The position numbers were made by a program, and so were the translations under genes. Shown piece by piece: positions 1 through 2,845 of a stretch of 64,000 bases of DNA (its first letter is position 1; each line of letters starts with the position of its first letter). This DNA is from Sphingomonas sp. (lineage in GTDB: Bacteria; Pseudomonadota; Alphaproteobacteria; Sphingomonadales; Sphingomonadaceae), in contig JAKFUZ010000002.1 in assembly GCA_021732445.1 (NCBI GenBank), positions 1 through 64,000 on the forward strand. The letters run 5' to 3'. The notes beneath the pieces are model-generated. The model worked only from the letters and a program-made list of their open reading frames with translations. It did not search any database and was not told the DNA's origin.

Positions 1-2
1 TG

Positions 3-128
3 TTCGGCAAACTCAAGCAACAGCGCCGTATCGCCACCCGCTACGACAAGACCGCCCTCTCCTTCGAAAGCTTCCTCAATCTCGCTGCCACACGCCTATG
101 GCTAAAGTCTTTTGTCAACACGGCCTAA
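3..128 (+). mobile_element. C-terminal fragment of IS5-family-like DDE transposase (truncated by window start)
   Basis: Frame from nt 3 reads FGKLKQQRRIATRYDKTALSFESFLNLAATRLWLKSFVNTA*, matching the typical C-terminus 'FGRLKQ-RRIATRYDK-A--F---L-LAA' of IS5-group transposases. Confidence 0.8.
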
Positions 129-394
129 TGAGTATGCCAGATATTGAGAAATATCGCGCCGATGTGGCGGATATCAATCTACCGCAAGCCCTGAAGGACG
201 AAATGATCAGAGTCGTCTGGCGCATGATGCAAGACGAAATTGACCGCGCCTACGGCACGAGTCCTGTTCAGCAAATTCTTCATATCAAGCCAGAAAAACG
301 TTCCAAAATGGACGCCGAACATGCTAGGTTTTTGCTTCAATCAATGAAGGACAAACGAGCAAAGCGCGCCCCTGAATGTGGCGGGCTCAGGTAG
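128..394 (+). CDS. hypothetical protein preceding serine recombinase
   Basis: In the 98..394 frame; ATG at 128 overlaps the transposase stop (TAATG); ends 6 bp before the recombinase start. Confidence 0.5.
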   Translation: MSMPDIEKYRADVADINLPQALKDEMIRVVWRMMQDEIDRAYGTSPVQQILHIKPEKRSKMDAEHARFLLQSMKDKRAKRAPECGGLR

Positions 395-400
395 GATTCC

Positions 401-1913
401 ATGACGAAGACCACGAACCTCAAAGCTGTCATCTACTGCCGCGTGTCGAGCACGAAGCAAACCACGCAAGGCAATGGCCTCGACTCTCAGGAAACACGCT
501 GCCGCGAATATGCTCGCTATCGCGGGCATGACGTTGTGAAGGTGTTCAAGGATGATGCGTCGGGCGGCTTGGTAACGCGTCCCGCGATGCAGTCCATGTT
601 GGCGTTCCTGAAAAGCCGCCGCAAAGAAACAACTGTCGTCATCATCGACGATATCAGCCGTCTCGCACGTGGCCTTGAAGCGCACCTCAAGTTGCGCGCG
701 GCCATCAGCAGCGTAGGCGGCATACTGGAATCGCCCTCAATCGAGTTCGGTGAAGATTCAGACAGCCAGCTCGTCGAGAATCTTCTCGCCAGCGTGTCGC
801 AGCACCAACGCCAGAAGAATGGCGAGCAAACCAAAAACCGAATGCGCGCGCGGACGATGAATGGCTATTGGTCATTCTATCCGCCGGTTGGCTATCGCTT
901 CGAGCGCGTGGCCGGTCACGGCAAGCTGCTCGTGCGCGCCGAACCTGTCGCCTCGATTGTTGCGGAAGCCCTCAATGGCTTCGCGACTGGCCGCTTCGGA
1001 TCGCAAGCGGAAGTGCAGCGGTTCTTTGAATCGCAGCCACAATTCCCGAAAGCGAAAAACGGCGGCATCACAATTCAGCGCGTGAGCGAAATCCTAAACC
1101 AGCCGATCTACTCGGGCCATATCGAAGTGGCAAAATGGGATATCTCGCTGCGCAAGGGTCAGCATGAAGGGCTGATATCACTCGAAACCTATCTTGAAAT
1201 TCAAGAGCGCCTAAACGGCAAGCCGCGCTTGCCAGTGCGCCAGAACATAAACGCGGATTTCCCACTACGGGGCTTTGTGACCTGTGGTGATTGCAACCTT
1301 CCTTTGACCGCGAACTGGTCGAAAGGACGGCATACGCACTATCCTTATTACATCTGCCGCACCAAGGGGTGCGCGAGCGCGGGCAAGTCCATCCCACGCG
1401 CCAAGGTCGAAGATGCCTTTGAAGAAGTCTTGCGCTGTCTAACGCCCTCACGGGATATCATCGCGCTGGCGTCGCACATGTTCCGCGATCTTTGGGATCA
1501 ACGCGCGGAGTCGGAAAATGCTGCCAAGCTTTCCATGAAGGCAGAGCTTTCGCAGATTGACCGAAAGCTCAATCAGCTTCTCGACCGGATTGTCGATGCT
1601 GACAGCGAGACGGTGATCAAAGCGTATGAAAAGCGTGTGCAGGAATTTGAATCGCAGAAGCTGCTGCTGAGCGAGAAAATCGCAAACTGCGGTCGTCCGC
1701 TGCCAGACTATGACGAAACTTTTCGAACCGCGATGGATTTTCTCGCAAGCCCTTGTAAATTATGGGCTTCTGAGAGGTTAGAAGACCGCCGTGCAGTGCT
1801 CAAATTGGCATTCGCAGACAACTTGGCCTATGTGCCAAAAGAGGGTTTTCGAACCGCTGAATTTTCCTTGCCCTTCAGGGCGTTACAGGATTTTTCAGGA
1901 TCAAAAAGAGAGA
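401..1913 (+). CDS. serine site-specific recombinase (resolvase N-terminal domain, recombinase domain, zinc beta-ribbon); ORF has no stop before the tRNA and is open to 2845
   Basis: N-term AVIYCRVSSTKQ...GLDSQ..., DDISRLAR, recombinase domain 'GYWSFYPPVGYRFE', Zn ribbon CGDCNLPLTANWSKGRHTHYPYYICRTKGC, C-terminal coiled coil. Confidence 0.9.
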
Positions 1914-1990
1914 TGGCGCGCCCGGCAGGAGTCGAACCTGCGGCCTCAAGATTAGAAGTCTCGTGCTCTATCCAACTGAGCTACGGGCGC
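1914..1990 (-). tRNA. tRNA-Arg(TCT), CCA encoded
   Basis: Minus strand GCGCCCGTAGCTCAGTTGGATAGAGCACGAGACTTCTAATCTTGAGGCCGCAGGTTCGACTCCTGCCGGGCGCGCCA: acceptor stem GCGCCCG/CGGGCGC, anticodon loop CTTCTAA, T-arm GCAGG-TTCGACT-CCTGC. Confidence 0.95.
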
Positions 1991-2035
1991 CCGGCGGCCT
2001 CGATAGCGCGGATTGCGCTGCGGCGAAACGGCGAT

Positions 2036-2845
2036 ATGCATCGTATCGCAGTCAACAAGGGGGCCAGTGTGTCGCTCAGGAAAGTCACCGCACGCGACAT
2101 GGCGGGAGCGCATTTTCGCTATTATGATTTCGTCATGGCGGCATTTGTCGTCATTTTGGTGCTTTCCAACGTGGTTGGTGCGGGCAAGCGCGCAGAGATT
2201 GGCGTGCCGTTTGTCGGCCTGTGGCCTTTTGGCGCCGGCATCCTGTTCTTTCCGCTGTCCTACATTCTCGATGATGTGCTGACCGAAGTATATGGCTATG
2301 CGCGGGCGCGCCGCGTCATCTGGGCCGGTTTCGCCGCGCTCGCTTTTCTGGTGCTGATGGAGTGGGTGACGGTTGCCCTGCCGCCGGCGGCCGACTGGAA
2401 CGGGCAGGCGCATTATGAATATGTCTTTGGCCTGCCGCCGCAGCATATCGGCACTTTTCCCTATTTCAGCGTGGGAATTGGCGGGCGCATTGCGTTTGCG
2501 TCGATCTGCGCGTTCTGGGTGGGCGACATTTTGAACTCGCTGGTGCTCGCCAAGATGAAAATCTGGACGGCGGGCAAGATGCTGTGGACCCGCACTATCG
2601 GCTCGACCCTCATTGGCGAAGGCGCCGACAGCCTGATCTTTTACCCGCTGGCCTTTTATGGGCTGGCCGACTGGCCGGTCAGCGCGCTGCTCGCGGTAAT
2701 GGGCACGCAGTTCGTGCTGAAAGTGGGCTGGGAGGTCGTCTTGACGCCAGTGACCTATGCCATTGTCGGCTTCCTCAAGCGCGCTGAGGGTGTGGATGTG
2801 TATGATGAAGGCACGGACTTCACGCCGTTCAGTACCCAAAGCTGA
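2036..2845 (+). CDS. yhhQ: queuosine precursor transporter (YhhQ/DUF165 family), in frame with upstream recombinase ORF
   Basis: Multi-TM protein with FPLSYILDDVLTEVYGYARAR, GRIAFASICAFWVGDILNSLVLAKMK, WTRTIGSTLIGEGADSLIFYPLAF; ATG at 2036 is in the 401..2845 frame. Confidence 0.85.
   Translation: MHRIAVNKGASVSLRKVTARDMAGAHFRYYDFVMAAFVVILVLSNVVGAGKRAEIGVPFVGLWPFGAGILFFPLSYILDDVLTEVYGYARARRVIWAGFAALAFLVLMEWVTVALPPAADWNGQAHYEYVFGLPPQHIGTFPYFSVGIGGRIAFASICAFWVGDILNSLVLAKMKIWTAGKMLWTRTIGSTLIGEGADSLIFYPLAFYGLADWPVSALLAVMGTQFVLKVGWEVVLTPVTYAIVGFLKRAEGVDVYDEGTDFTPFSTQS

Follow-up and report, generated by a model that had tools for sequence, protein, structure and literature searches.

A family of bacterial large serine recombinases with a predicted attachment site inside the recombinase gene and a C-terminus exchanged at tRNA 3′ ends

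Integrases that partition their own gene have been described from Archaea as SSV-type suicidal integrases, tyrosine recombinases whose element attachment site (attP) lies within the integrase gene, which target tRNA genes and are split upon integration into int(N) and int(C), a behavior stated to be exclusive to archaea (PMC8371274). Large serine recombinases such as the integrases of phages A118/LI, TP901-1 and phiC31 combine Resolvase, Recombinase and zinc-ribbon domains with invariant ribbon cysteines. In serine integrases the zinc-ribbon motif of attP is displaced outward by 5 bp relative to that of the target site attB (Rutherford et al., 2013, PMC3783163). A survey of large serine recombinases, in which tRNA goes unmentioned, reported multi-targeting enzymes whose specificity is relaxed and whose core is TT (Durrant et al., 2022, PMC10083194), and the reviewed integrative mobilizable elements (IMEs) with serine integrases belong to Firmicutes and disrupt dispensable genes (PMC5704250). 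Here we describe a large serine recombinase gene in the first 64,000 nucleotides of contig JAKFUZ010000002.1 of a Sphingomonas sp. assembly (GCA_021732445.1; this whole stretch is hereafter the window), which runs without a stop codon of its own into an oppositely oriented tRNA-Arg(TCT) gene. Comparison with its relatives indicates that it is very probably a serine integrase with attP inside its own gene, which crosses over at the CCA end of the tRNA and whose native C-terminal tail is swapped upon integration for a peptide read antisense from the tRNA.

The family resembles each of these systems in part. It shares the domain architecture, the invariant ribbon cysteines and the 5-bp outward attP motif with the A118/LI, TP901-1 and phiC31 integrases, but differs from them in the predicted attP inside the gene, the many tRNA 3′-end targets and the exchanged C-terminus. 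As in the SSV-type integrases, attP would lie within the integrase gene, which is partitioned on integration into a tRNA target; unlike them, it is a bacterial serine recombinase that appears to keep its catalytic and DNA-binding domains and to lose a short tail only. Close relatives use different targets, as among the multi-targeting recombinases of Durrant et al. (2022), but here through a precise site, CCA plus T-loop, that is common to many genes. A serine integrase accompanied by a relaxase is also found in the reviewed IMEs, whereas the present family is mostly from Proteobacteria and leaves its tRNA genes intact. Islands and prophages with tRNA-targeting tyrosine integrases likewise abut the 3′ end of a tRNA that stays intact, but the present elements share only about 3–9 bp with their target, and the tRNA remains host-coded. 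Our literature search, restricted to open-licence papers, found no description of a bacterial serine integrase with attP in its own gene; gene-splitting integrases, described as archaeal and tyrosine-only, are now apparent in bacterial serine integrases.

A first-pass annotation of the window had reported a single frame of 814 amino acids leading from a recombinase through an antisense tRNA-Arg(TCT) into yhhQ, and this frame is indeed present, uninterrupted, at 401–2845 on the forward strand, with zero internal stops upon translation. Its residues 1–504 (401–1912, +) are element-coded, as the domains and the end of homology to relatives indicate. The Resolvase, Recombinase and Zn_ribbon_recom domains occupy residues 9–345 (Resolvase PF00239, E = 4.7e-24; also PF07508 and PF13408), and profile matches in the PDB are to the TP901-1 and A118 integrases. 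The catalytic serine motif YCRVS is present; R14, V15 and S16 as well as the zinc-ribbon cysteines C295, C298, C319 and C324 are invariant in 35 sequences. By these domain features the protein is a large serine recombinase. The tRNA-Arg(TCT) gene, the putative target site (1914–1990, −, found by ARAGORN), encodes its CCA and has its 3′ end at 1914; codon 505 (1913–1915, ATG) is the first recombinase-frame codon to include tRNA bases. The predicted crossover triplet is the TGG at 1914–1916, the complement of the tRNA CCA, and the last recombinase codons up to 1912 should double as the P arm of attP. From 1913 to 2035 (+) the frame would encode a host-derived C-terminal tail, MARPAGVEPAASRLEVSCSIQLSYGRPAASIARIALRRNGD, of 41 codons before ATG 2036, with counterparts in the same frame in relatives. 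This stretch includes the antisense T-loop GTCGAAC (1931–1937, +; +18 to +24 from TGG), the predicted zinc-ribbon motif of attB′. The remainder (2036–2845, +) is a host queuosine precursor transporter of yhhQ type (PF02592, TIGR00697) with its own start at ATG 2036 or 2099, and the Vut_1 / queuosine precursor transporter match covers residues 579–793 of the frame.

The missing stop had been taken as peculiar to this insertion, but it turned out to be a property of the whole family. We collected relatives with 31–71% identity, plus one with 97%, from class, order and family genome samples and public contigs, giving 143 distinct sequences, 117 of them with a called tRNA or transfer-messenger RNA (tmRNA) at the junction. 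That the window's recombinase has no stop of its own before the tRNA, as first annotated, stands: homology to the relatives ends at residue ~503, and the native tails are found at the far ends of the relatives' elements. In all 117 relatives the tRNA or tmRNA lies antisense and points its 3′ end at the recombinase; it is entered in the same frame as in the window (NTG-Gxx) in 112, and the recombinase–tRNA spacing is exactly identical in 106. The targets comprise 10 tRNA isotypes and one tmRNA. Tails read in this frame resemble MARPxGFEPxT, with a glutamate at tail codon 8 that is invariant over 116 target tRNAs because it is read from T54-Psi55-C56, and the family suggests an explanation for integrase proteins ending in tRNA-antisense peptides of this kind. 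That recombinases end at one constant distance from the 3′ end of a tRNA, in a single frame and with no stop of their own, exceeds chance as a family-wide pattern, and this stopless junction is what an attP inside the recombinase gene would produce. Selection on the antisense frame was dropped as an argument, since all three antisense frames of the target tRNAs are mostly open. The family was found across Alpha-, Beta- and Gammaproteobacteria and in metagenome-assembled genomes (MAGs) labelled as other phyla. One of the latter (L245, labelled Nitrospinaceae) has the tmRNA target with the same spacing and frame. By tblastn against named phages and plasmids the recombinase had no match at the strict E-value limits of 1e-20 and 1e-60; on viral contigs a single recombinase sequence as query returned only pattern noise, and an alignment query was needed.

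Where the exchange takes place can be read from nearly identical recombinases in different tRNAs. Pairs that are 87–97% identical in DNA occupy Val(AAC) and Arg(TCT) (L043/L188), Val and Tyr (L047/L240), two different Thr tRNAs (L194/L277), and other differing tRNAs (L208/L211, L073/L074, and L192/L193 within one genome). The window itself pairs with its closest relative, L186, which lies in a tRNA-Arg(CCG) of a MAG: the proteins are 97% identical, and the last 60 nucleotides up to TGG 1914–1916 are identical DNA. In every pair 55–60 of the 60 nucleotides before TGG are identical and the local tRNA sequence takes over a few bases past it, which therefore places the crossover at or beside the CCA triplet, with host DNA throughout on its right, and makes the C-terminus of the integrated form host-coded. 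A tree of 116 recombinases holds at least 30 changes of isotype and at least 71 changes of isoacceptor, counted without a shuffled control. The other side of the junction was seen in G613 and G769, where one 38-kb element occupies two different tRNAs and the left-end homology begins at TGG.

Starting from these two anchors, from mobC and relaxase genes and from a profile of tails, left ends were located for 25 elements. Direct repeats had offered attL candidates in G043 (34 kb), G181 (19.5 kb) and G748 (43 kb), which proved misleading; the true left ends came from element-to-element homology together with mobC. All 25 left ends begin with NTGG, and in 25 of 25 the segment that follows is in the frame of the element's own recombinase; most of them have mobC and relaxase genes further downstream. 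This native tail is a conserved segment of 27–60 residues starting at TGG, most examples sharing the consensus M[AV]xLEGETSNxLFDxLEEWNxxL; in G613 and G769 it is a segment of 58 codons followed by mobC-like and relaxase genes. The profile also recovered tails outside its build (G069, 4e-8; G1043e, 6e-8; G1043b, 8e-6; G1043c, 5e-5). Between the G613 and G769 tails there are four silent and no replacing codon changes beyond codon 2 in the native frame, and the same changes are all replacing in both other frames; other tail pairs also have a proportion of synonymous differences (pS) above that of nonsynonymous ones (pN), less strikingly. Joined forms exist as well: a contiguous 533-residue recombinase on a phage contig (L179), a tandem junction of L235 and L079 in G057 with the order recombinase–tail–mobC–relaxase, whose recombinase copy contains TAG codons in frame, and, in G1043, the remnant of a recombinase attached to its tail. 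The claim that the C-terminus would differ between integrated and excised forms is borne out to the extent that the relatives' elements reveal the native tail at their far end. Judged from these 25 left ends, the relatives carry attP within a gene that integration partitions; the window holds the tRNA end only. Of 37 stretches lying upstream of recombinases in relatives, 27 contain mobC-like and/or relaxase genes (PF03432), and several of the remainder are short contigs; by this gene content, their own recombinase plus a relaxase, the relatives' elements are IMEs.

The two half-sites that would meet at TGG differ in a familiar way. The codons for T-S-N in the native tail contain TTCGAAC at +23 to +29 from TGG, and the best match to this motif starts at +23 in 23 of 27 attP′ arms, whereas in 130 of 132 target tRNAs it starts at +18 (to +24), in the antisense T-loop; one arm of the site was analysed in both cases. 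The displacement equals the published 5-bp shift of the zinc-ribbon motif. We infer that the recombinase uses the T-loop, common to all tRNA genes, as its zinc-ribbon site. CCA plus T-loop would be a natural rule allowing a single serine integrase to target numerous tRNA genes in nearly every genome, and may matter for genome engineering.

The mechanism that we propose builds on the architecture found throughout the family, the crossover region, the native tails, the agreement of frames and the motif shift, all read from sequence. The recombinase would recognize the 3′ end of a tRNA gene, with the universally conserved T-loop (GTTCGAA) serving as zinc-ribbon motif in one of the attB arms, and cross over at CCA (TGG on the recombinase strand). 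In the excised circle its frame would continue past TGG into the native tail, which is encoded at the left end of the element and which, in IMEs, precedes mobC and relaxase genes of the same orientation. Integration would cut the gene at TGG, leaving the catalytic, DNA-binding and coiled-coil parts whole at the tRNA end with a new tail read antisense from whichever tRNA was hit, and sending the native tail and the mob genes to the far end. In the window the tRNA-coded frame happens to stay open into yhhQ, giving 814 codons. It is our interpretation that recombination proceeds in this way, that the cell produces the two forms of the protein and that exchanging the tail has consequences.

Several observations weigh against this proposal. 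Five of the 117 relatives enter the tRNA in another frame, and the L086 and L010 recombinases stop before it. Whichever of the three antisense frames is taken, the 116 target tRNAs are mostly open beyond the T-loop; therefore open reading through the tRNA needs no selection, and openness alone proves nothing. Some left ends are weak, namely the G1039 tail (E = 5, the weakest member) and the motif in G613 and G769. Joining the flanks of G690 to search for an empty site gave none in 60 relatives, the left flank being variable. For the window itself the native tail is known only from L186, and its own left end is missing. In the AlphaFold model of the long L179 protein the tail is a helix of low confidence that follows a disordered linker. 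The evidence is wholly computational, and the excised circle, the empty site and the two protein forms are predictions.

A crossover in the T-stem instead of at CCA, with the element carrying the 3′ end of its target tRNA as islands with tyrosine integrases do, would fit the resemblance of P′ arms to the target tRNA for ~6–9 nucleotides past TGG and the direct repeats of 16–20 bp upstream in G043 and G181. We consider it very unlikely, given that nearly identical elements in different tRNAs differ right after TGG, that left-end homology starts at TGG itself, and that the real left ends found via mobC have no tRNA match beyond ~9 nucleotides. The left-end segment could also encode an independent small protein started at the crossover NTG, or a leader of mobC, its agreement with the recombinase frame arising through shared attP sequence. 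The first codon is ATG, GTG, TTG or CTG at every located left end and mobC follows close behind, yet in the integrated state unrelated host DNA precedes the NTG, leaving no possibility of a conserved ribosome-binding site. The frame agrees with the recombinase in every case, conservation reaches past the ~25-bp half-site, and L179 is one contiguous open reading frame (ORF), so that this explanation, too, is unlikely compared with a native C-terminus of the recombinase.

The first-pass annotation had given weight to the in-frame join to yhhQ, suggesting an accidental insertion beside the tRNA that set a stopless recombinase in frame with a host gene, with a functional or regulatory recombinase–transporter fusion as the outcome. 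The frame is genuine and transcription could in principle run on into yhhQ, but a meaningful fusion is extremely improbable. The same tRNA locus in element-free relatives holds the tRNA–yhhQ pair without the element: the pair occurs without a recombinase in most of the same-genus genomes examined and on a Sphingomonas parapaucimobilis plasmid record, and by this comparison is the ancestral arrangement. At 30 element-free same-genus loci the yhhQ frame is already open across the whole tRNA in six, two of them in the window's frame. Spacing varies, and 65 of 130 tails in relatives' recombinase frames stop within the length of the tRNA. Since the pair is ancestral, the spacing varies and half of the relatives' frames end so early, the join is incidental, a chance run-on. 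The junctions in relatives moreover lead into a variety of tRNAs and host sequences, yhhQ can start from codons of its own, and a tRNA gene on the opposite strand lies between the two genes. The flank of this tRNA on which the element sits differs from one relative to another, as it would at an insertion hotspot. The preferred reading, a tail swapped at CCA, can be extended into a state switch: the native-tailed form made from the circle would favor integration, the tRNA-tailed form would be inactive or favor excision, and the joining of mobC and relaxase to the recombinase in the circle would couple mobilization to excision. This is tentative. Conservation of the native tail extends further than the DNA-binding part, each integration detaches this tail, the conserved small ORF upstream of the recombinase could be a directionality factor, and only in the circle do mobC and relaxase follow the recombinase on its own strand, which suggests that the mobilization genes are transcribed after excision. 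The tail is nevertheless short, modelled with low confidence behind its linker, and tRNA-coded tails range from 3 to more than 400 codons, which speaks against a precise role for the tRNA-coded peptide. It is possible, though doubtful, that these recombinases form a bacterial class with attP in the gene and CCA plus T-loop as a universal landing site, in which tail swap and mobC–relaxase disconnection act as a built-in sensor of the integrated or excised state, setting the direction of recombination and coupling mobilization to excision. Whether a short native tail decides between integration and excision becomes a directly testable question.

The copy in the window is probably a stranded right end whose left end has apparently been lost. 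In L186 the native tail is MVHFTGETSNQLFEILREWNDVLRTTSLNPSQVGRPKKAVSG, followed by mobC and relaxase, and the element is about 20–21 kb; of this sister element only 125–1990 is present in the window's genome. The relaxase has no match in the window's assembly, so that the pairing of recombinase and relaxase seen in the relatives is absent from the window's own element, and neither a 27-mer nor an 18-mer query for attL gave anything above background in the window's genome. Since the copy has lost its other end, it is probably unable to excise in cis. A missing piece that is unlike the sister element could still be concealed by the gap in the assembly. Positions 1–127 (+) are the 3′ end of an insertion sequence (IS) of the IS5 family, with matches to DDE_Tnp_1_2 and IS5 transposases, and also the contig end. 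These 127 bp recur identically at seven other contig ends of the assembly, eight in total, indicating that the IS exists in several copies at which the assembly breaks. Immediately before the recombinase, at 128–394 (+), lies a small conserved ORF; 130 of 140 relatives have its homologue in this position, without exception on the strand of the recombinase. Its ATG at 98 falls inside the IS5 end and the homologous part starts at ~125–128. It has no match in Pfam, NCBIfam or PHROG, and may be a recombination directionality factor or an accessory protein.

Further arrangements were noted around these junctions. The alphaproteobacterial MAG G1043 holds five recombinase-family copies (L240, L252, L256 and two more), and two left ends there lie only 4–6 kb from the recombinase, making very small elements with no relaxase detected. 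In 13 loci (L071, L087, L093, L165, L170, L177, L180, L195, L206, L209, L238, L241 and L264) the recombinase 3′ end is joined to a tRNA 3′ half broken near the anticodon loop, probably where another element, perhaps of tyrosine-integrase type, has inserted in the same tRNA. A second serine recombinase (~25% identical; L325, G812:C184) in the flank to the left of the L186 element also terminates at this TGG but reads it as a tryptophan codon (...VRK|WCT...), which suggests that further families of serine recombinases share both the CCA site and the overlap architecture. Finally, the last element-coded bases of the window's copy (1895–1913) are A/G-rich (AAAAAGAGAG) and form a T-rich trailer on the tRNA's own strand; such an element end, a tendency also seen in relatives, perhaps substitutes for the displaced tRNA terminator.
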